From positions 1-48,154 of IMG/VR virus record IMGVR_UViG_3300027852_000052: a stretch of 48,154 nt of DNA; one strand, given 5' to 3'. A program made the position numbers and the translations under genes. The notes beneath the pieces are model-generated. The model did not search any database. It was not told where the DNA came from and saw nothing but the letters and a program-made list of their open reading frames with translations. Shown piece after piece: positions 2,388 through 43,174 of the stretch. Origin of the DNA: a virus. Positions within the stretch are counted from its first letter, which is position 1. Each line of letters opens with the position of its first letter.

Positions 2388-2413
2388 GATAAAGTCGAAA
2401 ATCGACTTTTATC
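2388..2413. promoter_or_regulatory. Dyad box 1 (TCG-W5-CGA)
   Basis: Core TCGAAAATCGA at 2395-2405 is flanked by GATAAA on the left and TTTTATC on the right. The result is an almost perfect 26-bp inverted repeat in the 48-base gap between two virion genes, ending six bases before the ribosome site of the second. It is one of nine perfect core copies in the window. Confidence 0.75.
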
Positions 2414-2429
2414 TTGGAGGAGATGTAAA

Positions 2430-2957
2430 ATGGCCGTATTAGATTTAAGGAGAACAGATTTAAGGACAAATATAAGAGAGAATCCGTACTGGATTACATC
2501 TGCAGAGATTGCACCGGCTGCTGATGATGCAGATGCTATTCTGTTTAGCTTTCCTGTCGCCGGTGATGTATTTTTTGTTCATGAGATAGTGGTAGAGGTT
2601 GCCACATTGTTTGCCGGTGGTACAATGGTTGTGGATTTAGGCATTGCTACCATTGCCACTGATGCTATTACTACTGGTGGAGTGGTGGCTAATCAGGATT
2701 TAGATGAGTATATGGCAGCTGCTGAGATTACTCTTACCACTGCTGGTTTTTACCCCGGTGGTGCGATTGCTGTGGATGGAGATGGTGCCATTACTGGAAC
2801 TGACTGGGCACTTGCAAAGGCTGAAGGTACGATCGCAAATCTGCTTATTACTGGCGTAGCTGCTGATGTTCCAGTAGTTTGTGCAACTTTGACAAGTGAT
2901 GACACGATTACTGCTGGTAGTGCATATGTGCATATGCTAGTTAGTAAGCTTCCTTAG
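2430..2957 (+). CDS. Probable virion decoration/minor capsid protein
   Basis: 175 residues, beta-rich with Ala/Thr/Val/Gly repeats (TIATDAITTGGV, AAEITLTTAGFYPGGAI) and few basic residues. There are no enzymatic motifs. The start at ATG 2430 has TGGAGGAG upstream, right after a dyad box. Its position between the capsid protein and the adaptor suggests a head surface or minor head protein. This is an inference from composition and neighbours, not a family match. Confidence 0.5.
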   Translation: MAVLDLRRTDLRTNIRENPYWITSAEIAPAADDADAILFSFPVAGDVFFVHEIVVEVATLFAGGTMVVDLGIATIATDAITTGGVVANQDLDEYMAAAEITLTTAGFYPGGAIAVDGDGAITGTDWALAKAEGTIANLLITGVAADVPVVCATLTSDDTITAGSAYVHMLVSKLP

Positions 2958-2968
2958 AGGTAAATGAT

Positions 2969-3595
2969 ATGAACTTTGGGGTGCTGAAAACCGGAGTTAA
3001 GAGGGTAATACAGGATTCTACATATGATGATCTTGTTGGGGATTGGCTTAACGATGTTGTAGAGGAGCTTGTGGAGGACTTGTGTCCTCCTGGCTTCTTA
3101 AGTATAATTTCTGTGTCTACAGTTGCGGATCAAGCTTACTTAACACTCCCTTCTGCTACATGTGATCGTGTTATTCGTGTTAGCGTGGATGGTACAGAGT
3201 ACGTACCAATAGACTTAACAGAATTGTTTATGTCGTATCCAGACCTTGATGAAGTTGGTGATCCTGTAGAGTTTGCCGTTGAAGGAAACCTGTTATATTA
3301 TCAGGGAATACCAGAGACAGTTACCACTGTTAGCGTGCTATGTAGAAGGCCGGTTGTCCAGATGGTTAGTGCTAGTGACACACCGGATACTATTCCGGTA
3401 TTCCTTCATGGCAAATTACTTATCTCTGGCGCAGCACTTAAAGTTTTTGATGAGATTGAAGATGGTGGAGAAGTTGACGAAATTATGCGGGCTAAGTTAG
3501 AAACTAGATTTGCCGAGGGTGTAGCTATACTTGAAAGGTGGGTAGTAAAAAGGACCAGTCATAAGTCCAGAAGGGATAATAGGTGGAATGTATAA
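2969..3595 (+). CDS. Putative head-tail adaptor protein
   Basis: 208 residues with an N-terminal helical section (VKRVIQDSTYDDLVGDWLNDVVEEL), a central beta section with YVPIDLTELF, and a helical C-terminus around IPVFLHGKLLISGAALKVF. This helix-beta-helix layout, and the position two genes after the capsid, resemble adaptor proteins that bind the portal ring (P22 gp4 or SU10-type). The stop overlaps the next start (TAATG at 3593-3597), so the small basic gene downstream is probably translationally coupled. Function is inferred. Confidence 0.55.
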   Translation: MNFGVLKTGVKRVIQDSTYDDLVGDWLNDVVEELVEDLCPPGFLSIISVSTVADQAYLTLPSATCDRVIRVSVDGTEYVPIDLTELFMSYPDLDEVGDPVEFAVEGNLLYYQGIPETVTTVSVLCRRPVVQMVSASDTPDTIPVFLHGKLLISGAALKVFDEIEDGGEVDEIMRAKLETRFAEGVAILERWVVKRTSHKSRRDNRWNV

Positions 3596-3720
3596 TGGCA
3601 AAAGTAAGTATGTTATCGTTGTCTCGAAGAAAGAGAATAAGTAAGTTGATGAAACTTAGTGCTCGTAAGAAGGGAAGTATGAGCAGAGTTGCTAGACCGC
3701 GGTTACAAAAAAGGAGATAG
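3595..3720 (+). CDS. Very small basic protein (41 aa)
   Basis: ATG 3595 overlaps the stop of the adaptor gene (TAATG). The product is 41 residues with about 17 Lys/Arg, for example SLSRRKRISKLMKLSARKK, and ends QKRR. There is no predicted membrane segment. Its last codons contain the ribosome site AAGGAG used by the GTG start of the next gene, so the three genes form a tight coupled set. The charge suggests DNA contact inside the head or connector, but this is a guess. Confidence 0.6.
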   Translation: MAKVSMLSLSRRKRISKLMKLSARKKGSMSRVARPRLQKRR

Positions 3721-3722
3721 CT

Positions 3723-4628: not shown

Positions 4629-4637
4629 GAGAATAAA

Positions 4638-6333: not shown

Positions 6334-8529
6334 ATGGCAACTTACATGTCAAATGGCTCGTATGCTAGTGTGCCGTGTGAGAGTTTAACTGGTTGGACTT
6401 TTGTTACAGGTGGCGCAGGCTCCGGTGTAATTACGCAAGAAGTATATGATGGTGAAGAGTGCTTTAAATATGATACAGGAGCAGCCGCTCCTGGCCGTGC
6501 ACGTAACTACAAAGACCTTGGTACTTTTGGTGAGACTACGATATTTTCAACTAGATTATATCATACTGATTTAGGAATACAAAGCACATATAATATTTTT
6601 GAATTTGAAGTTAATGTAACAGCCGAGTCAATATTTCGTGTGGGTTTTGCCTCTGACGGACTTTTCATATTTGATGGTGATGTATGGAATGAAGTAGGTA
6701 CTAATCTTGTTACATTAGATACATGGCAAGATTGGTCATTTGAAATAGACGCAAGTGTACCAAGTGCTGCTACTTGTAATATATACTTAGGTCATAGTCT
6801 TGTAGCTTCTGGTGTTGATTGTTCAACTACTGGTTATGTCCAAGCAGGTTGGGTAGCTCCTTTTTTGCAGGGTTACTCAATAACAAATCTCGTTTCCTAT
6901 ATAGACTATATGATATTTGGAGACGGTTGGGTTGACTATAGTGTTAAATGGAATAGTGCAGACAAAGCAGCAGATATTGCATTAACAAATGGAGACTTAA
7001 CAGCTTCTCCTACAGTGGGAACAGCGCATGCAGGAGTAAGAGGTCTTCAGAAGTTAGGGCAAGGTAAGTGGTATTGGGAAGTTCTTGTAGATAATCTTGG
7101 CAGTAGTTCTTTAATGGCTGCTGGTGTGTCCTTTGATACTTATGACTTAATATCTAGACTGGGTGCAGCCTCAGATGGTTGGAGTTATACGCCTGTTGGA
7201 CGATCGTTACATGATGGTACTGATGCTATAGTAGGAAGTGCTTATGGTACAAACTCTAGGTTAAGTTTTGCTGTAGACATGTATCAAAGTAAAATGTGGG
7301 TTGGAGTGGATGGCGCATGGCAGGGAGGAGGCAACCCTGTTACAGGTGCAAATCCTACGTTCTCTGGTTTTTATGATTTTGTTTTCCCAACGTGGAGTGG
7401 CTATGATGCAGATGATAGTGTCACTATTGTATTTGACTCTGCAGATTTTGTTTACTCCATCCCGTCAGGTTATGCAGAAGTAGCTTATGATGAAAATCCT
7501 ACTGAGCCTACAGGTTTAATTGAAACTACTCTTAGTGAAACTGCAGGGGCTACAGATGTAATACAGTCGTATCTTACTTACTCACGTAGTATAGAAGAGT
7601 CAGTAGGTGCTACAGATGCGTGGCAGGTTAGCAATCCAATATATTCTGCACTTGCAGAAGAAGCTGGTGTTAGTGATGTATTTGTCGTAACATCTCCTAT
7701 TGAGACGTTGTTAGAAGAAGATGTTGGTGCAACTGATTCTTTTGTAGGTTATAGCTTAAGTACAAGTATTTCTGACTCAGCTCAAGCAAGTGATACTTTT
7801 GTAGGTACTGTATTGGCTGGAGTACTTGCTGAGGGTGTTGGCGCTATAGATCAGTGGGCTACAGAAACAGTTTTACTTATTCAAACAGAGGATGGCAGAC
7901 ATTATGTAAGGGCAGATGTTGCAACTACAGAGACCTCTTATACTGCTCCATTGGGCCAAATAGATGTTGCTTTACCTTTCTTTGATGTAGACATTTTTGG
8001 TGGGGGCTCTCTCGATGTAACTTTGCCCGCATTAACTGTCGACGTTGTTGGAGAAGTAAACGAGTCTGCTGTTGTTGATGTAACTTTACCAAAGTTAGAA
8101 ACTGAGGTTCTTGGTGGAGGTTATTTAGATGCTAGTCTTCCAAGTTTTTCTGCTAGCATAAGTGGTGACATAGAGACACTTAGTACAGTTGATGTAGAAC
8201 TTCCGACTCTTCTTATGAGTTCTTCTGGAAAGGTGGAAGGTGTTTTAACTGCTGATTTTACACTGCCTGCTTTACAATTAACCTGTAATGGAGTTTGCGA
8301 GGACCAGATAAGTGTAGATGTTAGTCTGTATCCCTTACAAGTATCTATTACAGGTATGAATGGAGAACTTGGAACTGTAGAAATAGATCTTCCTATGCTT
8401 GAGGCAGATATAACAGGTGTACCAAGTACAGATGGTTATGGCGCTATTTCTCTTCCTGCTCTTTTAGCGAATGTTCATGGTAGTGCGTGGAGTCTTTACG
8501 ATGATTATGTCATGCGTTTTGTTAGATAA
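6334..8529 (+). CDS. Large tail protein: SPRY-like domain plus two repeat arrays
   Basis: 731 residues. Residues ~1-195 are a beta-rich (lectin-like) N-terminal part. Residues ~203-390 look like a SPRY/B30.2 domain (GKWYWEVLVDN, AGVSFDT, FAVDMYQSKMWVGVDG). Residues ~395-510 hold about six ~20-residue repeats of form LxExxGAxDxF. Residues ~540-720 hold nine repeats of form xDVxLPxLxxxxxG. The sequence therefore runs from binding domain to a rod built of two repeat types. This fits a tail fibre or spike that contacts the host surface, which is an inference. Its stop codon lies inside the next dyad box. Confidence 0.65.
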   Translation: MATYMSNGSYASVPCESLTGWTFVTGGAGSGVITQEVYDGEECFKYDTGAAAPGRARNYKDLGTFGETTIFSTRLYHTDLGIQSTYNIFEFEVNVTAESIFRVGFASDGLFIFDGDVWNEVGTNLVTLDTWQDWSFEIDASVPSAATCNIYLGHSLVASGVDCSTTGYVQAGWVAPFLQGYSITNLVSYIDYMIFGDGWVDYSVKWNSADKAADIALTNGDLTASPTVGTAHAGVRGLQKLGQGKWYWEVLVDNLGSSSLMAAGVSFDTYDLISRLGAASDGWSYTPVGRSLHDGTDAIVGSAYGTNSRLSFAVDMYQSKMWVGVDGAWQGGGNPVTGANPTFSGFYDFVFPTWSGYDADDSVTIVFDSADFVYSIPSGYAEVAYDENPTEPTGLIETTLSETAGATDVIQSYLTYSRSIEESVGATDAWQVSNPIYSALAEEAGVSDVFVVTSPIETLLEEDVGATDSFVGYSLSTSISDSAQASDTFVGTVLAGVLAEGVGAIDQWATETVLLIQTEDGRHYVRADVATTETSYTAPLGQIDVALPFFDVDIFGGGSLDVTLPALTVDVVGEVNESAVVDVTLPKLETEVLGGGYLDASLPSFSASISGDIETLSTVDVELPTLLMSSSGKVEGVLTADFTLPALQLTCNGVCEDQISVDVSLYPLQVSITGMNGELGTVEIDLPMLEADITGVPSTDGYGAISLPALLANVHGSAWSLYDDYVMRFVR

Positions 8530-8551
8530 AAGTCGAATTTCGATATTTATT
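8525..8551. promoter_or_regulatory. Dyad box 2 (TCG-W5-CGA)
   Basis: Core TCGAATTTCGA at 8533-8543, with GATAAA before and TTTATT after. It overlaps the stop codon (8527-8529) of the fibre gene and precedes the AAGGAG site of the next gene. Confidence 0.75.
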
Positions 8552-13918: not shown

Positions 13919-13942
13919 GATAAATATCGAAAATCGACATTA
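13919..13942. promoter_or_regulatory. Dyad box 3 (TCG-W5-CGA)
   Basis: Core TCGAAAATCGA at 13927-13937, with GATAAAT before and CATTAT after. It lies in the 37-base gap immediately before the ribosome site of the 1535-residue gene. Confidence 0.75.
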
Positions 13943-13955
13943 TGGAGGCACTCTT

Positions 13956-16900
13956 ATGGCAATGAGCATGGGAGAGAGAATTTATCTACAGAGAGAATCA
14001 GCTAAACGTGCAATGGAAAAGTCAGCTAGATTAGCTAAGGAAAGAGAAGAGAAGAAGGTTGTAGCAACAAGAGCAAAATATGTAGAAGACCCTAGTCTTT
14101 CTGAAAAGATGGTAGCAAGGTTAATACAGGGACATGTTCATGAAAGTTTTGCTGCTCGCAGAAAGGCTGTGCCTAGACTTCCTGAGATAGAGGAAAGCTT
14201 TAATGCTAATGATCCCAGAAAACATATAGGCTCTGAAGTTCTCAGTGAATATCAATCTATGATGCAGGATTCAGATTTTGATCAATATGGACCAAGAAAA
14301 CTTCTTATTGCGGCTTTCATGAACAAGATGGAGGATAGTGAGGAGGATATAAGAAAGTATGTACATAAGAGAAGGTCTAGTCCATTTAGAACATTCTCTC
14401 ATGAAGATTTTACTACGCCACCAGGACAGGATGAGTGGGAATCTGAGAATAGATTGCCTCAGCATACCAGTATAGGACAGAGTGTTCTTTGGGGAGGTGG
14501 TTTTGGTGCAGCCAAGGAAATTGGAAAGAAGGTATTGTTAAAAGGTGCGCCAGAAAGGCAGATAAAGAATGCCGTTGCTAGAAGAGTTATTGGAAGGACC
14601 TTGATGCAAACAAGGCATCCGATAGCTGCAGCTGCCGGTCTTGCAATAGCAGCTATACCTATTGACTTCATGATCGATTTTGTTGACAATAAACTTGGAG
14701 AGACTGATTGGGGACACAAACATCCTTGGCTTAGACTTGGTGCATCCATTGGATTTCTGGGAATAACTGGTCGTTTAACAGGAAAGATTGTAAATAGGTT
14801 GCAGAAAGTCACAAAATCTAAGTCTGCTGTTGAGAGAGAGGTGGCTAAGAACCCATCAGCCGAGAATTTATCTGAATTAGATGATCTAACTAGGCAATAT
14901 GACTCAGCTACAGAGGAGTTGGAGCATGCCGTAAAGGGTGAGTATAAGACTAAGATCAAGGCAAAGAGTCCGAAGCCTTCTGGTGAGCCTGTTGATGTTG
15001 ATGAAGCTGATGACTGGCTCAGACGAATAATGATACAGGCTGAAGAGAAGACTCCTACCGCAAGAATGAAAAGAAGAGAAGAATTCTTGACGTTAGAAGA
15101 ACAACAGAGGAGAGTTGCGGAACCTTACATAGATGTTTCTGATGCTTCTCCTGAAGAGCTTGTAAAGACTGCATCTGAAGTGCCTCGTGCAAGAGACGTT
15201 GCTAGGCCAAGATATACAAAGGATGTTCCAACAAGTGAATCGACACTTGATGTGGACGGTATTATACAAAAAAGAGAGGCTACTAAATCCTTAACTGATA
15301 GATCAATACCTAAGAAGAATGTTGTGCTGTCTCTAGAGGATAGAATAGGAAAGGATGCAGCATACAGTCTCAGAAAAACTTATGGAAAATCTTACGTGGG
15401 AGGAAAGAAATACTCTTTAGCCGATATAGAACCCGACAGACTTAGTCTTGTAGAGGAGAGAGTTGCTAAAGGAACAACACAGAAACAAGCTATACAAGAA
15501 GTTGGAGAAATGCAGGCAACTCTTAAGGCAGTAGAAAATGCAGAAAAGAAACGTATTCCATCCAGTGTAGTTAAAGATCTTAGAGGTCTTGGTTATAGTA
15601 CAGATGATATCTCTCGTATGGATTCTGAATCTGCAAGAGCAGTTGTTCAAGGTGCAGAGAACAGAGGCGCAAGCAATCTAGTAGAGAAGAAAGTTGAACA
15701 GACGTTGAAAACATTAGAGCCAAAGATAAGCAAACCTGTGGTAAAATCTACAGTTAAACAGTCAGATGTAGAACTAGAGGCTTGGGCAAAAGGGTTATCT
15801 CCTGCAGATAGATTTGATGCATTACAAGAAGGAAAGATTCCTCAGACTCTTTGGAAAAAGATTACAAGAGAAGAAAGAGTAAAGATTGAATCAAGCAAAA
15901 CATATAAAGAGCACGCTGATACAGAAGCTATGCTCGATAGAGCTGCAATGGAGCAGGAAGGTAAGGAGCTTGGTAGTATAGTTGGGAATATAGTAGATGG
16001 TGAACCACAAAAAGCAATAGGACGACTTGAAAAGATTGCTGTTGCAAGCGCAAAGAGAAAGGTTGCAAAGGGTGGAGCTACTGAGTTAGATGAGCAAATA
16101 GTGCAGGCTGCAAAAGAGGAAGAGTGGAATGCAGTAAGAACATTGGTTAAAGCTATAACTGCAGCAAGTGTTGTAGTCGGTGTATCCTCTTTATTTGCTC
16201 CTGAATCTGCTGAGGCAGGAAAGTTTGATACAGCAGGAAGAGTTGTGACTAAACTTGTTGGGGATATAATTAAAAAAGATCCTGAATTATTACTGCGTCA
16301 ATCACGTGAAGCAGGTTTAGTGTATAGACCAAGTGGCGACCCTTTCATACTTGGCGAAAGGATGAAGAATATTTATGTTGACCCAAGGAATGTTAAAGTG
16401 AGTGTTGATAAGGAACTTGGTCTGATAGGTCGTGCTGTTGGAACCCCTTTTGCTAAGTTAGGATATTACTTTCAGGGTACGTCAGGTATGGAGCAGATGA
16501 ATAATCCGACGGTGGTTCTTGCCAATGGTGTAACAGCAATGCATGTAAATACACTTAACGACGGAAGAATTTTTAGAAATATTATAAACGCTATTCCTGG
16601 GTACAGGAACACTTCTCAAGAAGTTGCAGAGACTATGCAACCTTTAATGGACAAGTATTTCCTTAAGATGCAAGAGCGTGGTTTTTATTATCAGATGAGA
16701 AATGTGTACGGAAAAAAGAGGGCTGTTCTAACAAAGAGATTAGAGAATGCTCAGAGAAAGCTTAAGAAGGGGAAGAAGGTTGTTGTTACTGAACAAGGTG
16801 ATGCCGCACTAAAACAGTATGAGACTATGCATAAATATTATGATGATGCATATAAAGCACATGAACCTATGTATAATAGTTATAGAGATGAATGGTTTAA

Positions 16901-18759: not shown

Positions 18760-18927
18760 TTAGGATTTAGCATGTAAAACCTTTTCCTTTGGTTTACGCA
18801 ACCACTTGTTAACTGACGGCTGTGCAATGTCAAGATAGTCAGCAATCTCTCGTTGCGTAAGCCCTTGGTCATCTAAGTCATTTATTCTTTTCTTCTGATA
18901 GTCTGTAATGGGTTTTCCTTGTGCCAT
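18760..18927 (-). CDS. Small helix-turn-helix DNA-binding protein (55 aa)
   Basis: 55 residues with GGAGGG before ATG at 18927. Residues ~17-43 read DLDDQGLTQREIADYLDIAQ followed by PSVNKWLRK: a classic helix-turn-helix (GLTQREIADYL as first helix, a turn, then SVNKWLRK as recognition helix) of homeodomain-like or transposase/sigma-like type. There is little else in the protein, so it is a minimal DNA-binding regulator. It is the only obvious stand-alone HTH protein in the window and hence a candidate ligand for the dyad boxes or iterons; that link is inference only. Confidence 0.75.
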   Translation of the reverse strand: MAQGKPITDYQKKRINDLDDQGLTQREIADYLDIAQPSVNKWLRKPKEKVLHAKS

Positions 18928-19227: not shown

Positions 19228-19245
19228 TTTTTGTCCTCCTTTTTA

Positions 19246-19268
19246 ATAATGTCGATTTTCGACTTTTC
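19246..19268. promoter_or_regulatory. Dyad box 4 (TCG-W5-CGA)
   Basis: Core TCGATTTTCGA at 19252-19262, in the gap upstream of the leftward HIRAN gene and overlapping no gene. The flanks are weaker (TAATAATG before, CTTTTC after). Confidence 0.7.
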
Positions 19269-19287
19269 TCTTTCGTTGGATGCTGCT

Positions 19288-25480: not shown

Positions 25481-25637
25481 TGTTATCCTTCTCTTTCTTT
25501 GTCCGTGTTAAGAGTATTGATATGTCTGTTGCTTCTACAGAGAACCCGAGTATTGTCAGATCATATATGTGCCTCCATTGGTTAAGAACTGTTTGTACTT
25601 GAGTATCTGTCCCATGTAGTATCTTATATTCTATCAT
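25470..25637 (-). CDS. Small conserved-looking phage protein (55 aa)
   Basis: 55 residues from ATG 25637 with AGGAGAAA upstream. The pattern EYKILHGTDTQVQTVLNQWR followed by a strand and ISILLTR resembles short alpha/beta phage proteins often beside replication genes. It overlaps the end of the methyltransferase gene by 4 bases and the start of the polymerase gene by 11 bases, so coupled translation is likely. Function unknown. Confidence 0.6.
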   Translation of the reverse strand: MIEYKILHGTDTQVQTVLNQWRHIYDLTILGFSVEATDISILLTRTKKEKDNNVC

Positions 25638-26941
25638 TGTAATTTCTCCTTTCTCTTATGTCTTGCCACTCTCTGAACTGCTGCAGAATAGGCATCTTCG
25701 TCTATATCACATCCAGTAAAGAACATTTTCAGTTCTAGTGCCGCAACAGCTGTTGGTGCAGAACCCATGAATGGGTCGAAGATTTTTGCTCCTGGCAAGC
25801 ATGTTCTCATAATAAGTTCACGCATTAATAGAACAGGTTTTTCATATTCGTGTATTCTTGCACTACCTGTTACAGGAGGAAAATTCTCTATCACATCTGG
25901 TCTGCCCTCTAACACAAGACGAGAATCAGGTTTTCTTGCAAACATGATCATGTCAAAACAGCTTGCTGGCCACATAGTTGGCTGGTTTGTTTGTCCTGAT
26001 GCACGTTTATACCATATAATAGGTTTAACATGAACCTTCCATCCAGCGTCTTCAAATGCTAGTGTCAGGAGATGGAAAAACCGTGGCGCCACAAATACGT
26101 AAACATGCCCATTGTCTTTTGTAAATCTGTAGGACTCTCCAGCTAACCTAGCTGACTGAAGAGCAAGTGTTGGTAGGTCTATATCCTTTGACTTGAACCC
26201 GGCAGATGTGAATTTTCCTGTTACACCATTAAGACTTCTACGTATCTCGTCTGCATCAATGCCATACAGAGGATCTGTTACAACAAGATCGAACTCTTTG
26301 TCTGGAATAGACTGCATATACTCCATTGAATCCTGTAAAAGCAGAGTTGGAATATTATCCTGTCTTTTTAATTCTTGTTGGTATTCTTCAAGCCTTTCTG
26401 TTCTTGTCTGAACCTTTGTGATTCCCTTTAAGGCTTTTACAATCTCAGACTTTGTCTTGCAGTCTTTAAGCTCTGGGTGATCTTTCACACCCTCTGCAAT
26501 AGCCAGGTTTTCTACAACATATGTATGACTTTTGTTCAGTTCGCCTGCTGTGTCCTGAATCTTCCAGCCACCCTCACGACCAGATGTGGATTTACCTATC
26601 TTATCTTGCTTCATTTGATGGAGTTCACCTACAGCAAGAGCCTCCTCAGCTGCAGTTAGTGCTTTTCTCTTAAGGTTGACCTCTAGTTCTAGCTCTCGCA
26701 TAGTCATATTATCGACTACATCCTTATATATTGCCATAACCTTCAGTCCACCTAGAGCACAGGCAGCTAAACGTCTTCCTCCATCTATAAGTTCTCCCTC
26801 CCTATTTAATACGATAGGCTGTAGTTGACCATACTCTTTTATAGAATCTAACAAACCCTTTACGTCGCCCATATCTGTACGGAATCTCGGAAGCTCTTCT
26901 TTCACTATAATCTCTGTTGGCTCAATCTCAAAAAGGTTCAT
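25634..26941 (-). CDS. ParB-like domain fused to amino-DNA methyltransferase
   Basis: 435 residues. Residues ~5-100 are a ParB N-terminal (sulfiredoxin-like) domain with LDSIKEYGQLQPIVL and DGGRRLAA (53-60; GERR in most family members). Residues ~125-150 look like a helix-turn-helix. Residues ~198-430 are an N6-adenine or N4-cytosine methyltransferase of permuted order: TDPLYG at 222-227 (DPPY family, Leu in place of the second Pro) and IFDPFMGSAPTAVAA at 387-401 for AdoMet binding; HEYEKPVLLMRELI (364-377) is typical. No cognate nuclease is seen, so it is an orphan, probably protecting phage DNA or marking it. Confidence 0.85.
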   Translation of the reverse strand: MNLFEIEPTEIIVKEELPRFRTDMGDVKGLLDSIKEYGQLQPIVLNREGELIDGGRRLAACALGGLKVMAIYKDVVDNMTMRELELEVNLKRKALTAAEEALAVGELHQMKQDKIGKSTSGREGGWKIQDTAGELNKSHTYVVENLAIAEGVKDHPELKDCKTKSEIVKALKGITKVQTRTERLEEYQQELKRQDNIPTLLLQDSMEYMQSIPDKEFDLVVTDPLYGIDADEIRRSLNGVTGKFTSAGFKSKDIDLPTLALQSARLAGESYRFTKDNGHVYVFVAPRFFHLLTLAFEDAGWKVHVKPIIWYKRASGQTNQPTMWPASCFDMIMFARKPDSRLVLEGRPDVIENFPPVTGSARIHEYEKPVLLMRELIMRTCLPGAKIFDPFMGSAPTAVAALELKMFFTGCDIDEDAYSAAVQRVARHKRKEKLQ

Positions 26942-29256: not shown

Positions 29257-29280
29257 ATTTTGTTTCCTTTCTAATAAAAG

Positions 29281-29291
29281 TCTATTTTCGA
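29281..29291. promoter_or_regulatory. Near-consensus dyad box (TCTATTTTCGA)
   Basis: One mismatch from TCG-W5-CGA, preceded by AATAAAAG, followed by TATTTTAA. It lies upstream of the leftward gene at 28993-29256. Confidence 0.5.
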
Positions 29292-29315
29292 TATTTTAAA
29301 ATCGTTTCTAAGCTC

Positions 29316-29399: not shown

Positions 29400-29563
29400 T
29401 TTTCGACCTTGCCACTTTTTGAGGGTTTAAAGTGTCGAAATTCGATGTTTATCTCCTTTGAGAGCTCTTTTTGTTGTCTTAGAGCTATCTGTAGTCTGAT
29501 ATGCTTAAGCACTTTTCGTGCCCATATCTCTTTAGTTATTTGATCGTTACCCTCAAATATCAT
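29396..29563 (-). CDS. Small basic helical protein (55 aa) containing a dyad box
   Basis: 55 residues from ATG 29563 (GAGG 8 bases before); an ATG two codons earlier overlaps the upstream stop. The product is helical and basic (KEIWARKVLKHIRLQIALRQ). Unusually, a full dyad box with its GATAAA flank lies inside the gene at 29435-29445. It may be truncated by a frameshift: see the entry at 29316-29399. Function unknown. Confidence 0.55.
   Translation of the reverse strand: MIFEGNDQITKEIWARKVLKHIRLQIALRQQKELSKEINIEFRHFKPSKSGKVEK
29435..29445. promoter_or_regulatory. Dyad box 5 (TCG-W5-CGA), inside a small gene
   Basis: Perfect core TCGAAATTCGA with TTTATC four bases to its right (GATAAA on the - strand) and TTTAAA-like sequence to the left. 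It is the only perfect copy lying within a predicted gene. Confidence 0.7.
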
Positions 29564-30574: not shown

Positions 30575-30943
30575 CTACATAGTTACTCCTAAGGTTTCCA
30601 GGAGCTTCAGTGCCCTGGCCTTTTCCTTCTCGGGAAGGTCATCCAGCTTGCTCTTGATCTCATCTTTTGATACACCGATTCCGGCATGTCCTCGGTGCCA
30701 TTCACCCTTCATCATGGACTCGTGGGTCGCCTTTATTGCATTGACTGCATCTTGTCCGGACAGCCCACTGGCTGCGTTTCCGAGCTTGATATTAAGGCCA
30801 AAGGGACCGAGTTTTTCTTGGATGGTTGCCGGGTATTTTGTGAAATCGAAGTTCATCTCTGTGGAGGTCACAAGTTCCGTTATAATAAGTTTATTTCCGT
30901 TTTCCTTGTCAAACTCCTTTTTTAACTTTCTTTCTTTCGCCAT
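30575..30943 (-). CDS. Unknown early protein (122 aa), paralogue of the gene at 39937
   Basis: 122 residues. After a basic start, the LIITELVTSTEMNFDFTKYP part, GLNIKLGNAASGLSG and the ESMMKGEW motif align in order with the 144-residue gene at 39937-40371 (DFKLKLM, SLIAGEW). GVSKDEIKSKLDDLPEKEKA near the C-terminus corresponds to the acidic helical end there. AAGGAG precedes ATG 30943. It is followed by a strong terminator. Function unknown; this may be the best expressed gene of its section. Confidence 0.65.
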   Translation of the reverse strand: MAKERKLKKEFDKENGNKLIITELVTSTEMNFDFTKYPATIQEKLGPFGLNIKLGNAASGLSGQDAVNAIKATHESMMKGEWHRGHAGIGVSKDEIKSKLDDLPEKEKARALKLLETLGVTM

Positions 30944-31220: not shown

Positions 31221-31374
31221 CTTCTAACCTCCGACATTCTTCTTCTGTATATATCTTTACAGGCCCGTTGCAGTCTTGCTTTTGAAATCTTGGGGCCTTT
31301 GTAGGTAAGCCACGCTGGAATGACCACTCTTTTTTCTTCTGTTCCTCTCGGAATGTTTCTCGTATTTCATCCAT
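31141..31374 (-). CDS. Unknown basic early protein (77 aa)
   Basis: 77 residues from ATG 31374 (AAGG 8 bases upstream). It is basic and charged (EEQKKKEWSFQRGLPTKAP, EECRRLEDEKRQKD). The start overlaps the end of the preceding gene, and the last 27 codons overlap the zinc-ribbon gene. Such a long overlap is unusual, so this one is less certain than its neighbours. Confidence 0.45.
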   Translation of the reverse strand: MDEIRETFREEQKKKEWSFQRGLPTKAPRFQKQDCNGPVKIYTEEECRRLEDEKRQKDITGQEKRNERRGTLSQMWK

Positions 31375-31792
31375 TCTCCTCATCCTTAAATGGTAGTGAT
31401 TTTATTTCCGCCTCTGTTAATGGTCTTACAAGGGCATCATTTATCTCCTCTGGTGTATGGCCCTCTCTTACCATTAGCTGTATTTTCCTTGATCTCCTTA
31501 AGTCTCTACCAAGTGAGATTCTTTTTATCTTTCCTCCAGTAGTCTTCCTGTATGCCTGCATAGGATCATGGACTTTTTTGGTTACCATAACCCACCTTCG
31601 ACCATCACGAAAGGTCTTCTGAATGGATATCCTTGCCACAGAAATGGGGTCAAGGACATCCTTATCTTTTATGAGCTTTTTTATATCTAAATATATGCTC
31701 TGTTGTTCGTTCTTATTTTCACAGGGCAGGAAGAGGCTCTCGCCCAAGGATAGGTTTAATGCCTCTTCCGCCCAGTTCTCTAGAACTAGCAT
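31367..31792 (-). CDS. Unknown early protein (141 aa)
   Basis: 141 residues from ATG 31792 (GGGGAG 8 bases before); a TTG start seven codons earlier has no ribosome site. It has an acidic N-terminus (LENWAEEALNLSLGESLFLP) and a basic helical C-terminus (ISLGRDLRRSRKIQLMVREG). No motif I recognise. It overlaps neighbours on both sides. Confidence 0.55.
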   Translation of the reverse strand: MLVLENWAEEALNLSLGESLFLPCENKNEQQSIYLDIKKLIKDKDVLDPISVARISIQKTFRDGRRWVMVTKKVHDPMQAYRKTTGGKIKRISLGRDLRRSRKIQLMVREGHTPEEINDALVRPLTEAEIKSLPFKDEENG

Positions 31793-32160
31793 GGAGGGAC
31801 TCCCCGTAACCAATTTCTTCTTGCATCGAGTATCATATCAATAAGATCACATCTTGACTTAGTAGAAAGATACTCTTTACAATAAAGACATATGACTACA
31901 TCTGCAGTTTCAACCTTTTTCTTTTGAATCTGATCATATCCATCTCTTTCAATAGGTATACTTGTCACACAATCATCGTCTCCAAGCATTAAGAAATGTT
32001 GTAAAGACTGTGACCCGCACAGTTTGCATACGACCTTATATTGTAGACCATATTCAGTCTTTGGTTTTATTTTCTTTTTCTTTTCTGGAACAAGACCTAT
32101 TTTTATCGCAAGCCTTAATTCCTCTTCTGTCAGACTATCCATGTCTATATCCATACTCAT
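31786..32160 (-). CDS. Zinc-finger-like early protein (124 aa)
   Basis: 124 residues. Two Cys pairs, CKLC (~45-48) and CLYC (~91-94), are separated by a beta-rich region, suggesting one zinc site. The N-terminus has TEEELRLAIKIGLVPEKKKK, a helix with a Lys run. It overlaps the upstream gene by 4 bases. Possibly nucleic-acid binding. Confidence 0.6.
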   Translation of the reverse strand: MSMDIDMDSLTEEELRLAIKIGLVPEKKKKIKPKTEYGLQYKVVCKLCGSQSLQHFLMLGDDDCVTSIPIERDGYDQIQKKKVETADVVICLYCKEYLSTKSRCDLIDMILDARRNWLRGVPPC

Positions 32161-32546
32161 ATACCTCCTTTCATATAACTATCAATCTCTTCTTTTGAAA
32201 ACCCATCCTCTTCCATAAGTTCACGCATTCGCATCTCTCGTGACTCACTAGCCTCTGGTCGCCATATCTCAGTTTCTCCATCTGGATACACAAAGGTGGC
32301 TTCTGCAACAGCAACAGAGTCTGTTAGAGTTATAGTTACTTCAAACAGGTTTGATTCTTGGATTCCCTTTTTTGATATGATTACTTTTTCTGCGAGAGTT
32401 GGGTTAAACTTAGTCAGTTTGACCCTTTCTCTGTGAATGGCTACCCGGATTCTGTCTGCCTCTGCTGAGGTTGTCCTTTTTACAAGGCACGTTGTTCCGG
32501 GTGGGGACTCTATCACTTTTCTAAATAATTCCGCGATAGTACTCAT
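32157..32546 (-). CDS. Unknown early protein (129 aa)
   Basis: 129 residues, alpha/beta, with FEVTITLTDSVAVAEATFVY in the middle and helical ends (RMRELMEEDGFSKEEIDSYM). The first gene after the sigma70-type promoter at 32573-32601, so its start (AAAGGAAT before ATG 32546) is well placed. Function unknown. Confidence 0.6.
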   Translation of the reverse strand: MSTIAELFRKVIESPPGTTCLVKRTTSAEADRIRVAIHRERVKLTKFNPTLAEKVIISKKGIQESNLFEVTITLTDSVAVAEATFVYPDGETEIWRPEASESREMRMRELMEEDGFSKEEIDSYMKGGI

Positions 32547-33846: not shown

Positions 33847-35883
33847 TTAAAACATAACTTTAATTGTTCTGGCAATATGCCCTTTCACTCTTAATATCAG
33901 AGAGTTCCTCTTGGTCGAACTGAATCCCAGCCCGGAGAGTTGATTCTCTGATGGTTCTACCCTCATCTTGCTTCCTAGTGCTGCGAAAACACGTTTATGT
34001 TTCATGAAATCCTCTTTTAGAAACTCATTGAAGAATCCATTGGGCTGTTCGGGGTTCTTACAGCCATCAAGCATGAAGAAATAATGTTTATGGCCTATCC
34101 CCTTTTGTCCATCCCAATAGTTAGGAGAAAACATGCATAAGGAAACCTGATGAAATTGATTTGTCTTCAGACCCCATGCATCTTGGGACTGTGTGTCATA
34201 TGGCAATGCCTCTATAAAGGTAATACCAGTGTCCTTTTTAAAGGCAGCCCTTGCTACAAGAACAAACTCTTTGTGCCTAAGTGTATGGTTATACTCGTAA
34301 GAGAATATTTGTCCGTCATACTCAATCTCGGCACTAAAACCCGTCCTTCCTCCACAATGAGTGTAGTTGTGAACAAGGAACTGGTATACGCCCTCTTGCA
34401 TTTTGTTAATGTCTGTCCAGACAATGTTCTCAACAGCTACATTTGGTCCTGGCGTGATGATGTCTACATCTAACATTCCGGATGATGGTTGTACTATCTT
34501 TGCTAAGGGAAAGTGTATCCTGTTGCCATTTGGCTCAATACAGTGTGCGTCAAAATCATTTTGATTCTCCCCTTTCTTGTTCCACATTATGGAGTATCTT
34601 TTGACACCATTTATATTGCCACCAAAACTCTTGACGTGTTGTTTCATTGAATCTGTGAGGTTGCCCGGATAGGCCCAGGAGAAACCGTTATCCCATTTAA
34701 ATAAGGACTTACTCTGTGGATTCTGGGGGGCAATAAGGGACACAAAGTTAGACGTATGTTTATTCTCTACAAGCACTTCCATACTTGTTATTCTTGGAAG
34801 GATGTCTTTTAAGAACACACCTATGTGAACCTCTCCTACTCTATCGAACTTCTTTGTGTCTAGTGTAACTTCACTTTGTAATTCAGAAAAGACATCCTTT
34901 GTCATTCTACTCACTGCATCTCTGTTTGCAAACAGGATATTATTAATCGTTATGTCGTCAATAGTTGCAAAACGTCTGCCAAGTGATTCTGTCAAGCCTA
35001 AACTTATGAAAGTTTCCTGGGCTTGTTCAACCATTTTCTTTGTGAATATGTCTTTGGGCCGTTTATAGTTTGGCGGGGCAACGATATGCTCATATCGCTT
35101 GACTGCATCATTGATATCCGTCCCTTGCGAAAGATCTGTTAATAAGACACCTATGGAATGGTTTCTTATTCTTCCTATCGCTCCTCCAACACTGGTTGAT
35201 TTGTCCCAGCAAAACAGGTGTTTCTCCTGTCTTCTCAGCTTGTAGTAATTTGTATATAATACGAGAAACTTACTGAGCACACTCTTCCATTCGTCACCCT
35301 TATAGAGCGATCCTTGCGTGATCAGATCAAGGACTGTTTCAATAGAGTCCTTTGTTATTTCCTGTAAACTTCTCTTGAAGACATCATGTGTCGCACGGAA
35401 CTGAGAAACTGTAGTTCCAATGGTTTCAGACGACTTGCAGACGAGTCTTGGGGGTAATTCCAGAGATAGATGGTTCCAAGTCTGGATCATACCGTTGTCA
35501 AGTAATTCCCTGTTGTGTGCGGTGCCGAGCTTACTCTCTTTCGTGATAAATACATCATGAATGGGGAAACCCTTGACATACTCTGCAAGAGCGGAGACGA
35601 CAGGCTGATATGTTGTGTCGTCAACTGTGAAGTCCCATAGACTTATAGTCTTGTTGTCCTTAATCACGACAATGTGCCCATAGTGACGTATAAAATTTCT
35701 ACAACAACTACAGTCAAACTCCCGCCTCTCTCGGAACACTTCGTTTGTTCCTGGTGGAAAGCTATCTAGGTATAGCTCCCAAAGCAGATCTGGGTTAAGG
35801 TTTGTTGTGAATAGAGTGTTTTGACCGCCCATCATATCATAGGCATGTTCAAGGAACACCTCTTTAAACTCTCTAAACTCCAT
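33847..35883 (-). CDS. Large early protein with YfaP/DUF2135-like domain
   Basis: 678 residues. Near the N-terminus CSCC (~58-61) could bind metal. Residues ~420-550 show a beta-sandwich pattern (NDFDAHCIEPNGNRIHFPLA, SGMLDVDIITPG, GVYQFLVHNYTH, FSAEIEYDGQ) close to YfaP/DUF2135 domains. The remainder has no motif I recognise. It is the largest gene in the accessory part of the early unit and has AGGAGG 8 bases before ATG 35883. YfaP-like domains often bind sugars or calcium in exported proteins, but no signal peptide is present, so a cytoplasmic role, perhaps against host defence, is possible. Confidence 0.6.
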   Translation of the reverse strand: MEFREFKEVFLEHAYDMMGGQNTLFTTNLNPDLLWELYLDSFPPGTNEVFRERREFDCSCCRNFIRHYGHIVVIKDNKTISLWDFTVDDTTYQPVVSALAEYVKGFPIHDVFITKESKLGTAHNRELLDNGMIQTWNHLSLELPPRLVCKSSETIGTTVSQFRATHDVFKRSLQEITKDSIETVLDLITQGSLYKGDEWKSVLSKFLVLYTNYYKLRRQEKHLFCWDKSTSVGGAIGRIRNHSIGVLLTDLSQGTDINDAVKRYEHIVAPPNYKRPKDIFTKKMVEQAQETFISLGLTESLGRRFATIDDITINNILFANRDAVSRMTKDVFSELQSEVTLDTKKFDRVGEVHIGVFLKDILPRITSMEVLVENKHTSNFVSLIAPQNPQSKSLFKWDNGFSWAYPGNLTDSMKQHVKSFGGNINGVKRYSIMWNKKGENQNDFDAHCIEPNGNRIHFPLAKIVQPSSGMLDVDIITPGPNVAVENIVWTDINKMQEGVYQFLVHNYTHCGGRTGFSAEIEYDGQIFSYEYNHTLRHKEFVLVARAAFKKDTGITFIEALPYDTQSQDAWGLKTNQFHQVSLCMFSPNYWDGQKGIGHKHYFFMLDGCKNPEQPNGFFNEFLKEDFMKHKRVFAALGSKMRVEPSENQLSGLGFSSTKRNSLILRVKGHIARTIKVMF

Positions 35884-38832: not shown

Positions 38833-38861
38833 ATTATACCCTAAAAAGATTCTTATGTCAA
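38833..38861 (-). promoter_or_regulatory. Consensus sigma70-type promoter
   Basis: On the - strand TTGACA (38856-38861), 17-base spacer, TATAAT (38833-38838): a perfect consensus in both hexamers and spacing. The -35 lies in a 23-base stretch repeated exactly at 39148-39170. Confidence 0.9.
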
Positions 38862-39129: not shown

Positions 39130-39158
39130 ATTGTAGCATAAAATGTGTCTTATGTCAA
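39130..39158 (-). promoter_or_regulatory. Sigma70-type promoter
   Basis: On the - strand TTGACA (39153-39158), 17-base spacer, TACAAT (39130-39135). Shares its upstream and -35 sequence exactly with the promoter at 38833-38861, and drives the paralogous small gene. Confidence 0.85.
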
Positions 39159-39210
39159 GTTATATCTTATTCCAAACATGGTTACTCTATACTCCCGTAG
39201 GGGAGAAGGG

Positions 39211-39221
39211 TCGAATTTCGA
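39211..39221. promoter_or_regulatory. Dyad box 6 (TCG-W5-CGA), origin left flank
   Basis: Perfect core TCGAATTTCGA followed by TATTTT. It lies 9 bases from the first iteron cluster. Confidence 0.7.
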
Positions 39222-39229
39222 TATTTTGT

Positions 39230-39287
39230 TGTACGAATGTACAAATGTACACTTGTGTACTTGTACGATAGTACATGAATGTGTACG
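39230..39287. repeat. Iteron cluster A, 8-bp units TGTACNAA
   Basis: Consecutive 8-base units TGTACGAA, TGTACAAA, TGTACACT, TGTGTACT, TGTACGAT, AGTACATG, then a last GTAC. Seven GTAC tetramers occur in 56 bases, where about one per 256 is expected. Such phased short repeats are typical binding arrays for an initiator or partition protein. There is no open reading frame here with a ribosome site. Confidence 0.75.
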
Positions 39288-39329
39288 AAGTTCCAGCAGC
39301 CCCCCTTCCCATTTCTCCGATGTTTATCC

Positions 39330-39495: not shown

Positions 39496-39622
39496 GTTCA
39501 CGTTCACGTACAAACGTACAAATAAAAAATTTTTTTCAAGCCTGTTTTGGGTTTGCTGAAAGTGACGTTCAAACGTGCAAAATAAGGGCTTGTACAATCG
39601 AACAACCGTACAACCGCACAAA
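39496..39622. repeat. Iteron cluster B, 8-bp units YGTNCAAA
   Basis: Three subgroups: CGTTCA, CGTTCA, CGTACAAA, CGTACAAA (39496-39521); CGTTCAAA, CGTGCAAA (39566-39581); and TGTACAAT, CGAACAAC, CGTACAAC, CGCACAAA (39591-39622). The 8-base period matches cluster A. No gene is seen in the + or - strand here that has a start and ribosome site. Confidence 0.75.
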
Positions 39623-39626
39623 AATA

Positions 39627-39637
39627 TCGTTTTTCGA
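39627..39637. promoter_or_regulatory. Dyad box 7 (TCG-W5-CGA), origin right flank
   Basis: Perfect core TCGTTTTTCGA, followed by TCTTTATC. It touches the end of iteron cluster B, mirroring box 6 beside cluster A. Confidence 0.7.
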
Positions 39638-39655
39638 TCTTTATCTTTTAAGGGA

Positions 39656-39936: not shown

Positions 39937-40371
39937 TTATTCCTCGTTTTTCTTGTTTTCCTCATCCTGAAGGTTTTGTGCAGTCTTTAGCAACGCTTCC
40001 TGTTCCTCAGTCAAAGGGATGCTCAGTGTAACCAAGGTGCGTATGTCCTCCAGGGATGTAATCTTCCCCGCTGCCTCTTTGTTGTATCCAGAGGTCTTCT
40101 TAGACGACCATTCTCCGGCTATCAGGGAATTCCAAGTATCCACCATAAGTTTCAGCTTGAAGTCTTGTGACTTTCCCTTAGTGTCGGCCTTTTTGTTGCT
40201 CAACTTCTGCTTACAAACGAAATATAAGCATTGTATCTTGAATTTCCTATCCTTGTCCATTGCCTTCTCTAACAAGGTTAGGTCAAAGCCCTCATGTTTG
40301 ACGTCTCCAGAGGACAGTATGGCCAACTCGTTCTCCAGCTTCCATTTAAAACTTTTTTCGATTTCTGTCAT
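39937..40371 (-). CDS. First early gene, unknown (144 aa)
   Basis: 144 residues, helical and charged: SFKWKLENELAILSSGDVKH at the start, LKLMVDTWNSLIAGEW in the middle and an acidic helix (TEEQEALLKTAQNLQDEENK) at the end. It is similar in order of motifs to the 122-residue gene at 30575-30943. It is first behind two tandem promoters and a boxA-like element, so it should be the earliest protein made. It is enclosed by a 26-base inverted repeat. Function unknown; a host-takeover or regulatory role fits the position. Confidence 0.65.
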   Translation of the reverse strand: MTEIEKSFKWKLENELAILSSGDVKHEGFDLTLLEKAMDKDRKFKIQCLYFVCKQKLSNKKADTKGKSQDFKLKLMVDTWNSLIAGEWSSKKTSGYNKEAAGKITSLEDIRTLVTLSIPLTEEQEALLKTAQNLQDEENKKNEE

Positions 40372-40519: not shown

Positions 40520-40548
40520 ATCCTACCATCTTTATGGTAGAATGTCAA
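40520..40548 (-). promoter_or_regulatory. Sigma70-type promoter for early genes
   Basis: On the - strand TTGACA (40543-40548), 17-base spacer, TAGGAT (40520-40525). Faces the early unit. Confidence 0.75.
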
Positions 40549-40593: not shown

Positions 40594-40622
40594 ATGATAG
40601 CATCTCTGAGGGGATAAGTCAA
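40594..40622 (-). promoter_or_regulatory. Sigma70-type promoter for early genes
   Basis: On the - strand TTGACT (40617-40622), 17-base spacer, TATCAT (40594-40599). Lies 74 bases upstream of the promoter at 40520-40548; the two are tandem. Confidence 0.75.
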
Positions 40623-40725
40623 GTAAAAAGATTTTTAATTTATTTATTTCTGGATATATGTATTTTATCTACTACTGGACGGGGAAAGCAAAAAGAATCT
40701 TAGTCTATTTAGGGTGGGATAAAGA

Positions 40726-40736
40726 TCGTTTTTCGA
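40726..40736. promoter_or_regulatory. Dyad box 8 (TCG-W5-CGA) in the divergent control region
   Basis: Perfect core TCGTTTTTCGA with GGATAAAGA before and TATTAT after. It lies between the early promoters and the late genes, with a TATAAT at 40761-40766 about 30 bases to its right; no -35 hexamer accompanies that. Confidence 0.7.
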
Positions 40737-40860
40737 TATTATGGGCTCAACTCTGCTTAATATAATAAGAGACCCCCCTAGAGCACCAAGACGTCATGTA
40801 GATGGTAGAAGATGACCACCTTTTTACACGCAAGGAAATTTTAAAACGAGTTCATTAGAA

Positions 40861-40997: not shown

Positions 40998-41405
40998 ATG
41001 GGCGCATTGGAAGATCTTATAAATAGAGCAAGTTCAGAGGAGCTTGATCTTGTTGGTGTAAAAGAAAAGATAAGTGCTCTTTCTCTTTTAAAGGATGAAA
41101 TGCAGGAATATAGACTCCTGCAGAGCTTTGAGCTTACCTCTCTACAGAGTATCTTGCTGGATGCTGTTAAAAGTGCTGTTAATCCTGATGTTCCTCTACG
41201 TGATCTTGTGAATGCTTTTAAAATTCTGAAAGAGAAAGAGCACCTAATAGATGGAAAACCTACAGAGTTTAAAGGTCTTGTACACTATTTGACAGCTTTG
41301 GAAGAAGAGAAAAGAGAGGTCCCACTAGAGTTGGAGTCCGAAGTTTATGAGGGAGAGTTTGTAGAGAAACCAAAGGTTCAACCAGAGAGAATGCCAAGGC
41401 TTTAG
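40998..41405 (+). CDS. Putative terminase small subunit
   Basis: 135 residues, mainly helical: GALEDLINRASSEELDLVGV, then SLLKDEMQEYRLLQSFELTS and a central KILKEKEHLIDGKPTEF. The acidic C-terminus (LELESEVYEGEFVEKPKV) may contact the large subunit. No clear HTH. The position, first in the late unit and two genes before the large terminase, is the main basis for the call. AAGGAGG before ATG 40998. Confidence 0.5.
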   Translation: MGALEDLINRASSEELDLVGVKEKISALSLLKDEMQEYRLLQSFELTSLQSILLDAVKSAVNPDVPLRDLVNAFKILKEKEHLIDGKPTEFKGLVHYLTALEEEKREVPLELESEVYEGEFVEKPKVQPERMPRL

Positions 41406-41424
41406 GCCGAAAGGATGATAAAGA

Positions 41425-41706
41425 GTGAAGACTTTACATAATAGTGATGTGTCAGGAGCAGCGGAAAATGTTAAGGACTTAAAAGTAGTAGGAAACGGTG
41501 ATATGTTTCAGTTGCTCTGCAAGGCTAGTTCAGAGGAAGAGGGCTGGATGAAATCCACAAAAGCCATGGAGATTGCACCTCTTGGTTGCATTGTTCAAGT
41601 GACTACTCAACAGTGGGGTGTGGTAGCAGAAGCTGTATGTTTTGTCCCCGGTGTTAGAATTGTGGATGATGAGAATAATGGAAGAAAGCTTATAGCGAGG
41701 ACGTAA
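41425..41706 (+). CDS. Small protein between terminase genes (93 aa)
   Basis: 93 residues from GTG 41425. The stretch EEGWMKSTKAMEI then GCIVQVTTQQ and AEAVCFVPGVRI is a pattern I recall from small genes next to terminases in several phages. Beta-rich. No enzyme motif. Two bases... its stop directly precedes the GTG start of the large terminase, so translation is coupled. Function unknown. Confidence 0.6.
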   Translation: MKTLHNSDVSGAAENVKDLKVVGNGDMFQLLCKASSEEEGWMKSTKAMEIAPLGCIVQVTTQQWGVVAEAVCFVPGVRIVDDENNGRKLIART

Positions 41707-43161
41707 GTGAGCGCATCTAAGTTAGATCCAAGGATACTTCGTAGAATTGGAAGGTGGAAGAATAATCCACTTCTGTGTGTATCTGATACAATTGATGTGG
41801 ATTTAACTGATCAGCAGATAGATGCGTTACATGCAATATCAAACGGTAAACGTGTAACCATTAGATCTGGCCATGGTTGCGGTAAAGATGGCATAGCTGC
41901 AATAATTGCTTGGTGGTTTATGTGCTCCCGTGCATATGCTAAGACAGCCGTCACAGCTCCTACACATAGACAGTTGCATGATATTTTCAGGACTGAGCTT
42001 TCTAAATGGTTTAGGAAAAGTACCTTGCAGGATGAGTTTGTAATGCAAAAGGATATTGTCTTTCATAAGAGTGCTCCCAAAGAGTGGTGGCTAAGGTATA
42101 TCTCCCCACAAGTTAGAGCGACTAAAGATGAGCAGGCTGAAACACTTGCGGGTCTGCATGGGGATCATCTCCTTCTAATTGTGGATGAGGCAAGTGGTGT
42201 GCCAGATCCAATGTTTATACCGCTTGAGGGGGCACTTACACAAGAAGATAATAGAGTTTTGCTAATTGGGAATATGACAAAGAACACAGGGTATTTTCAC
42301 GACACACATTTTCACGCAAAGGTTTCTCCGAACTGGACTAAGTTACACTGGGATTCAAGAGATTCAAGTCTTGTCACTGATGATATGGTACAGTTTTTTA
42401 AGGATAAGTATGGAGAAGAGTCCTCTATATTTGCTGTTCGTGTAAAGGGTGACCCTCCACATGAGGATGAGAGGACTTTAATTCCGTTAGGATGGGCGCG
42501 ACAGTGCCTTGGAAATGAATTTCCTATTGCTGAGGATGAGCCTAAATATCTTGGTGTGGACGTTGCCAGGTACGGTGAGGATAAGTCCATTATAATGCCT
42601 AGAATGGGGCTTAAAATATTTCCATGGAAAACCTTTCAGGGCCTTAATACTATATCACTGGGAGGTTTTATAAACCAATGTTATATAGAGGAAGAGGCTG
42701 ATGGTCTTGCTATTGATGAGATTGGTGTTGGCGCCGGTGTGACTGATTGGTTATATAAGCATGGACATATTAACTGTTTTGGTATAAATGTAGCAGAAGC
42801 CTCTTCGAATATTGCGGAGTATAATAGGCTTAGAGACGAACTATGGGTTCTTGTACGAGAGAAGTGCATGAAGGGTGTGTACAACTTTCCAGAGACTGAT
42901 GAAGGAGAAGAGCTTTGTAATGAGCTTGCTTGTCCAACTTATGATTTTAATGCAAGTGGTGGATATGTCATAGAGAGTAAGAAGAGTATGAAACTGCGTG
43001 GTGTAATGTCACCAAATATAGCAGATGCTTTATGTCTTACAGAGTACTTTTCTGGGGACGCACATAGGATATGGAAGAAGCAAGAAGCAAAGAGAAGCAA
43101 AACAAATTATTACAATGATAACTACGATGCGCCTATGAAGGGTGCATGGCAGGTAGCATAA
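41707..43161 (+). CDS. terL: Terminase large subunit
   Basis: 484 residues from GTG 41707. ATPase part: RSGHGCGKD at 53-61 (Walker A, with Asp where Ser/Thr usually follows GK), TAPTHRQL (~83-90), Walker B LLLIVDEAS with D160-E161, coupling motif LLIGNMT (~185-191). Nuclease part: GVDVARYGEDKS with D285, AIDEIGVGAG with D337, NIADAL with D440. This protein cuts and drives DNA into the prohead through the portal encoded at 45241. The length fits. The GKD variant is odd for a Walker A. Confidence 0.9.
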   Translation: MSASKLDPRILRRIGRWKNNPLLCVSDTIDVDLTDQQIDALHAISNGKRVTIRSGHGCGKDGIAAIIAWWFMCSRAYAKTAVTAPTHRQLHDIFRTELSKWFRKSTLQDEFVMQKDIVFHKSAPKEWWLRYISPQVRATKDEQAETLAGLHGDHLLLIVDEASGVPDPMFIPLEGALTQEDNRVLLIGNMTKNTGYFHDTHFHAKVSPNWTKLHWDSRDSSLVTDDMVQFFKDKYGEESSIFAVRVKGDPPHEDERTLIPLGWARQCLGNEFPIAEDEPKYLGVDVARYGEDKSIIMPRMGLKIFPWKTFQGLNTISLGGFINQCYIEEEADGLAIDEIGVGAGVTDWLYKHGHINCFGINVAEASSNIAEYNRLRDELWVLVREKCMKGVYNFPETDEGEELCNELACPTYDFNASGGYVIESKKSMKLRGVMSPNIADALCLTEYFSGDAHRIWKKQEAKRSKTNYYNDNYDAPMKGAWQVA

Positions 43162-43163
43162 AG

Positions 43164-43174
43164 TCGATTTTCGA
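43164..43174. promoter_or_regulatory. Dyad box 9 (TCG-W5-CGA)
   Basis: Perfect core TCGATTTTCGA with ATAAAG before (overlapping the terL stop at 43159-43161) and TATTTATC after. It lies directly before the holin-like gene. Confidence 0.75.

Follow-up and report, generated by a model that had tools for sequence, protein, structure and literature searches.

Lineage-specific dyad sites form genome-wide networks at gene junctions in an uncultivated podophage family

Genome-wide networks of sites read by a single protein are known in few phage groups. In Cluster A phages (L5, Bxb1), stoperators occur in many copies across the genome within short intergenic gaps, with a genome-specific motif that diverges between related phages (PMC6550527, PMC9283540); each genome holds 20-30 of them, and these temperate phages have a known repressor. 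A repressor monomer binds each L5-type stoperator, an asymmetric 13-mer whose orientation is tied to transcription (PMC9283540). In Cluster K phages, some genes have extended start-associated sequences (ESAS) directly ahead of their start codons, inverted repeats whose half-site positions vary between subclusters and which have no known function (PMC3203893, PMC12699233). Their arms are 17 bp long and their spacer varies, and they occur together with a conserved 13-bp start-associated sequence (SAS). Within the part of the literature that we covered, ESAS and stoperators were the only described equivalents of the element reported here, a 25-bp dyad that recurs at gene junctions throughout the IMG/VR record IMGVR_UViG_3300027852_000052 (positions 1 to 48,154; this whole 48,154-nt stretch is the window hereafter) and, in other letters, throughout the genomes of its relatives.

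Analysis of the window revealed nine exact TCGWWWWWCGA cores, at 2395, 8533, 13927, 19252, 29435, 39211, 39627, 40726 and 43164, all of which had been listed in a sequence-only reading of the same DNA. Chance predicts 0.12 such cores, and none of 100 dinucleotide shuffles held more than 2. A symmetric 25-bp position weight matrix (PWM) was built from eight sites, with those starting at 29428 and 29274 held out. The eight training sites scored 25.5-31.5 and the held-out sites 21.0 (29428) and 20.5 (29274), whereas the next-best place in the window reached 8.4 and the maxima across ten shuffles were 5.1-13.9, so the matrix-versus-shuffle comparison suggested in the sequence-only reading separates sites cleanly from background. 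The recovery of both held-out sites far above background defines a network of ten 25-bp sites. Of two near copies proposed earlier, that with its core at 29281 is a genuine tenth member with one core mismatch, and that at 28983 was dropped, being absent from the PWM scan list. The 10-bp half-site of the window is CGAYNTTTAT, which flanks a 5-bp A+T spacer on both sides. The GATAAA/TTTATC outer arms that had been attributed to most copies are partly conserved; both exact arms are present at site 2395 alone, which rules out this pair as a strict outer arm.

The sites mostly occupy the interval from a stop codon to the next ribosome site, and nine of the ten centres are noncoding once two dubious open reading frames (ORFs) are set aside. 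An ATG follows six of the cores (2395, 8533, 13927, 19252, 29281 and 43164) at a distance of about 18-25 nt. The site at 2388..2412 falls between genes F2 (1977-2381) and F5 (2430-2957), its core 24 nt from the ATG, and that at 8526..8550 lies in the F14/F16 junction, its core 3 nt past the stop of the gene at 6334-8529 and 22 nt ahead of the ATG at 8566. The site at 13920..13944 precedes the ATG of a 1535-aa virion gene (13956-18563) by 18 nt. The site at 19245..19269 stands 24 nt upstream of a minus-strand HIRAN gene (18931-19227), with a helix-turn-helix (HTH) gene (18760-18927) next, and the site at 29274..29298 stands 24 nt upstream of the minus-strand ATG at 29256. The site at 43157..43181 overlaps the TerL stop codon, directly upstream of the next ribosome site. 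Elsewhere, the site at 29428..29452 lies downstream of the exonuclease gene, and its core at 29435 falls within a small plausible ORF (c29396-29569), a correction to the sequence-only reading. Two sites (39204..39228 and 39620..39644) belong to a noncoding control region, the second adjoining a terminator-like inverted repeat that by eye reads on the minus strand; another (40719..40743) lies in the late-operon leader, upstream of the TerS-position gene (40998-41405). Sites occur in both early and late regions, as the sequence-only reading had proposed.

Searches with TerL and the head protein recovered viral contigs at 53-74% identity in those proteins, plus two contigs from metagenome-assembled genomes (MAGs); relatives with networks share 47-58% identity with the window across concatenated core proteins. 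All relatives are metagenomic contigs, several of them incomplete, and their genes were called with a simple custom script. None of them carries a TCG-W5-CGA network (W5, five A or T), exact sites being absent or single, and IMG/VR pattern scans for the window form returned nothing or five single matches in other contigs. The relatives carry the same architecture in other letters, including GTCA-W5-TGAC, TARTTCA-W5-TGAAYTA, AATACACANTGTGTATT and GTCAACNGTTGAC, in 3-14 copies each. These drifted forms emerged only after homologous junctions were read. The expectation that the element would be found in related phages held for the network and not for its letters. After junction reading, TCA-W5-TGA was counted at 9 places in genome G005 (1.1 expected), at 8 in G002 (0.35 expected) and at 7 in G007. 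A generic palindrome finder detected networks in every near-complete relative examined, with 11-13 copies in G025, G027 and G028, 10 in G030, 9 in G005, and 8 in G023 and G029, and at most 2 in shuffles; an earlier dyad finder requiring near-perfect symmetry had missed most networks.

A genome-by-palindrome core matrix proved nearly diagonal, its rare off-diagonal matches all single. The window has 9 TCG cores, G005 has 7 of its own, G027 has 13 of AATACACANTGTGTATT and G030 has 14 of GNTCAACNGTTGANC; GTCA-W5-TGAC occurs 3-10 times in G002, G014, G023, G024, G025, G026 and G028, and G029, L145 and L069 each have their own palindrome. Among 2.9 million viral contigs, matches to the G005 form (AGATARTTCA-W5-TGAAYTATCT) were restricted to three contigs of the G005 lineage, and a scan with the G002 form added more contigs of the G002 lineage. 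The half-site of most relatives is TGACNTTTCT. The G030 form retains GTCA-N5-TGAC but its spacer is not A+T, and the G027 form is so divergent that a common origin is uncertain. Two family relatives, L068 and L069, lie within MAG contigs, one from Bacillota and the other from Woesebacteria, which may represent hosts or misbinned contigs.

Phylogenetic analysis of seven concatenated proteins, in which some deeper nodes are weakly supported (54-70), placed genomes with GTCA-W5-TGAC (7 of 12 compared) in both major clades and nested the window among lineages that all have this form. All ten window sites, one of them with a single core mismatch, carry the TCG/CGA form. The presence of GTCA-W5-TGAC in both clades and of TCG/CGA at every window site points to concerted change in the window, and the simplest reading would be that GTCA-W5-TGAC is ancestral and that the ten sites changed together. 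A pattern of this kind is also seen in Cluster A phages, whose genome-specific motif diverges along with the repressor (PMC6550527). Related genomes with the same layout and different letters constitute a natural experiment, posing a directly testable question of what reads such sites and how ten sites change together; the lineage-specific palindromes provide bait sequences for finding the binder.

To characterize the dyads themselves, we compared the two arms at ten positions per genome with random re-pairing. Complementary arm pairs were not above the random level, lay below it in most genomes and showed no compensatory excess. The 5-bp spacer consists of A+T without preference for a strand (AAAAT, TTTTT, ATTTT and others). 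In G002-type genomes, the core-to-start distance is repeatedly exactly 18 nt. Each of the nine sites of G026 (L157-L159) combines one TTTCT-type with one TTTT-type arm, never two alike, a composition suggestive of an intrinsically asymmetric complex.

Like Cluster A stoperators, the dyads are distributed genome-wide in short gaps and have a genome-specific motif that diverges between related phages. Unlike them, they are 25-bp dyads with 10-bp half-sites in about 6-14 copies, and searches revealed neither an integrase, in 12 genomes, nor a repressor. Orientation varies between lineages, being biased in G014 and G030 and unbiased in at least one lineage (G026). The likening to stoperators in the sequence-only reading is thus apt for genome-wide, putatively protein-binding dyads in short gaps and does not extend to the asymmetric 13-mer, monomeric binding and repressor of the L5 type; that reading had itself seen no such repressor. 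The dyads resemble ESAS as inverted repeats just upstream of start codons (18-25 nt at the six window sites), but have 10-bp arms, a fixed 5-bp spacer and no SAS-like partner (in G005, nothing is conserved beyond the site), as well as far larger letter divergence, and belong to an unrelated phage family. Since they differ from stoperators in being symmetric and in the failure of searches to find a repressor, and from ESAS in arm length and in having no SAS partner, we regard them as a variant that is a member of neither class. Spo0A boxes with GTCRAA-like half-sites occur in the genome of Bacillus phage phi29. The G005, G027 and G029 forms do not fit this 0A box, and the half-sites described here are arranged as inverted repeats.

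The explanation that we favor, with a probability of about 0.45, is that the dyads are operators of a probably phage-encoded dimeric protein affecting transcription at gene junctions, in a stoperator- or ESAS-like manner. It draws on the highly non-random network, the same architecture in relatives, the concerted change, the non-covarying arms, the tight placement between stop codon and ribosome site, the arm order in G014 and G030, which follows transcription at most sites (counted by eye), and the Cluster A parallel. We infer recognition by a dimer: one sequence-specific protein would contact two 10-bp half-sites across the 5-bp A+T spacer. It would occupy junctions every ~5-6 kb along both early and late operons, immediately ahead of the following ribosome site. 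We hypothesize that the phage encodes this protein and that, once bound, it most likely modulates passing or starting transcription by block, pause or timing, as stoperators do. Protein and sites would evolve together, such that a change in recognition is written into every copy in the genome.

A more far-reaching version, which we hold more tentatively, is that all these phages rely on one trans-acting DNA-binding protein from an unrecognised protein family, each genome having 6-14 evenly spaced dyads. The specificity of this protein would have shifted repeatedly, and every shift would have reached all sites. Related genomes would then be mutually unreadable, and the dyads would constitute a new genome-wide system of phage control or genome organisation and no copy of stoperators.

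Several observations weigh against operators of a phage-encoded regulator. Our searches found no repressor, integrase or conserved double-stranded DNA-binding regulator; for integrase, the 12 genomes gave no match and the positive control worked. A 55-aa HTH protein (18760-18927, minus strand; HTH_3 E=6e-5), encoded in the operon downstream of site 19245, is the sole clear HTH protein detected in a whole-genome HTH_3 search of the window, a weak second match lying within the 1535-aa virion gene. No relative of its gene was found, and the HTH_3 matches in relatives are TerS in G002, G014, G027 and G028, hence in at least four of five genomes; the match in the fifth, G029, is unassigned. In G005, about half of the sites fall within gene 3' ends and encode DSSNFELS-like peptides. 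The G026 arm order matches transcription at 4 of 9 sites (by eye), an unbiased orientation, and the symmetric dyads of G005 and G028 have no defined orientation. Junction reuse across genomes amounted to 56 shared tokens versus 41 expected under random junction choice (P=0.10), and positional conservation is therefore not claimed, although the F5/F6 junction bears a site in 6 of 9 genomes. Even spacing, detailed below, is not predicted by a purely local operator, and the binder may, improbably, be encoded by the host.

Searches for HTH_3, integrase and ParA and structural models of two further families identified no binder. F8 and F32 are small families with two diverged copies each in the window (loci 30575-30943, 39937-40371, 31367-31792 and 32157-32546) and in most profile-searched relatives. 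F8, present as two copies in all genomes, was set aside on a modest-confidence model with no fold match. F32, with two copies in most genomes, gave a confident model whose best match, the KhpB/EloR R3H domain, had an E-value that was not significant; its R3H-like fold would suggest binding of single-stranded nucleic acid.

The main rival explanation, which we consider unlikely but the most serious, is genome organisation, an alternative already raised in the sequence-only reading. A phage protein on regularly placed dyads would bridge, condense, segregate or mark the genome, as a dispersed centromere or an aid to packaging or replication, and the position at gene ends would merely reflect where a 25-bp insert is tolerated. 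Sites are spaced about 4-8 kb apart, more evenly than chance in most genomes tested. The coefficient of variation (CV) was 0.25 in G002, 0.26 in G025, 0.31 in G028, 0.39 in G026 and 0.43 in G005, versus 0.81-0.90 for random junctions (P from <0.0002 to 0.007); G014 is even too, more weakly. With the control-region cluster merged to one, the window joins them (CV 0.35, P 0.007), but over all its sites the spacing is not significant (P 0.12), and such clustering in the control region is itself unfavorable to this explanation. The occurrence of sites in early and late regions, and within coding ends in G005, agrees with it, as does a conserved ParB_N-methyltransferase fusion (25634-26941, minus strand; present in 8 of 8 relatives compared). 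In the plasmid-prophage N15, inverted repeats dispersed along the genome are bound by one phage-encoded protein, at few sites and within a ParA/ParB system. Here, by contrast, ParA (AAA_31) had no match in 12 genomes although the positive control worked, and the fusion lacks a recognised HTH domain. The fusion is not favored as the binder, and its reading as a ParB was rejected because no ParA was found. Genome organisation also fails to explain why sites sit so tightly before ribosome sites and why orientation is biased in two lineages.

Less probable again is that the dyads are promoters for phage-modified transcription, substituting for standard promoter elements upstream of gene blocks. 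The sites do stand ahead of genes, separated from them by short leaders, in early as well as late modules and also where the late operon begins, and the GTCA-W5-TGAC form happens to include a TTGAC -35-like box. The window form, however, lacks TTGAC, and no shared -10 hexamer was found at any offset within 75 bp outside the element in six genomes. The single-subunit RNA polymerase profile (RNA_pol) had no match, a weak negative given that the control of that search also matched nowhere, and for F27, a large protein considered as a virion RNA polymerase, the PDB gave no match and no polymerase motif was consistent. The early promoters resemble ordinary sigma-70 promoters and are situated away from the dyads.

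That each lineage bears the recognition sequence of its own host's regulator appears improbable. The sites track lineage, hosts may differ, and our searches of the phage genomes turned up no binder. A phage-encoded partner would nonetheless fit better, given that the copies have turned over almost completely within a single phage family and that most half-sites resemble derivatives of one ancestral form, TGACNTTTCT.

Least probable is an mRNA hairpin for processing, stability or translational control: the palindromes do lie upstream of ribosome sites, and site 2395 folds at -9.6 kcal/mol (z -3.9, the best of five window sites, which range from -3.9 to 0), but three of the five are barely or not better than shuffles (z -0.04 to -1.2), the element has no Rfam family match, and the lack of arm covariation, the strand-neutral spacer and these weak folds fit protein-read DNA half-sites better. 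Sigma-70 promoters and RNA processing hairpins, both alternatives of the sequence-only reading, are thus made unlikely by the missing arm covariation, the weak hairpins and the absence of a shared -10.

The window represents the complete genome of a podophage from an uncultivated family; the closest cultured phages reach just 34% identity in the head protein. Its structural genes comprise an N4-type major head protein, portal, terminase and the 1535-aa virion gene, and its replication and metabolism genes a DNA polymerase A with an N-terminal uracil-DNA glycosylase domain (23135-25480, minus strand), primase, Sak4, exonuclease, ThyX and the ParB_N-methyltransferase fusion; 12.3% of the genome is noncoding. 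The record ends (1-1086 and 47055-48152) match each other at 93.8% with one 12-base indel, so that the record probably represents a circular genome of ~47 kb put together from two variants, the ends likely being an assembly overlap of these variants and not an exact terminal repeat. A 678-aa protein (33847-35883, minus strand) belongs to PHROG 1735, a family with no assigned function; at up to 50% identity, it is found across 487 records of phages with many different hosts.

In the control region, four strong sigma-70-like promoters on the minus strand (38833-38861, 39130-39158, 40520-40548 and 40594-40622) lead leftward into the early genes, one of them with a perfect TTGACA-17-TATAAT. The same region carries iterated GTACAA/TTGTAC words (39230-39290 and 39497-39620), which are possibly a replication origin or another operator array.

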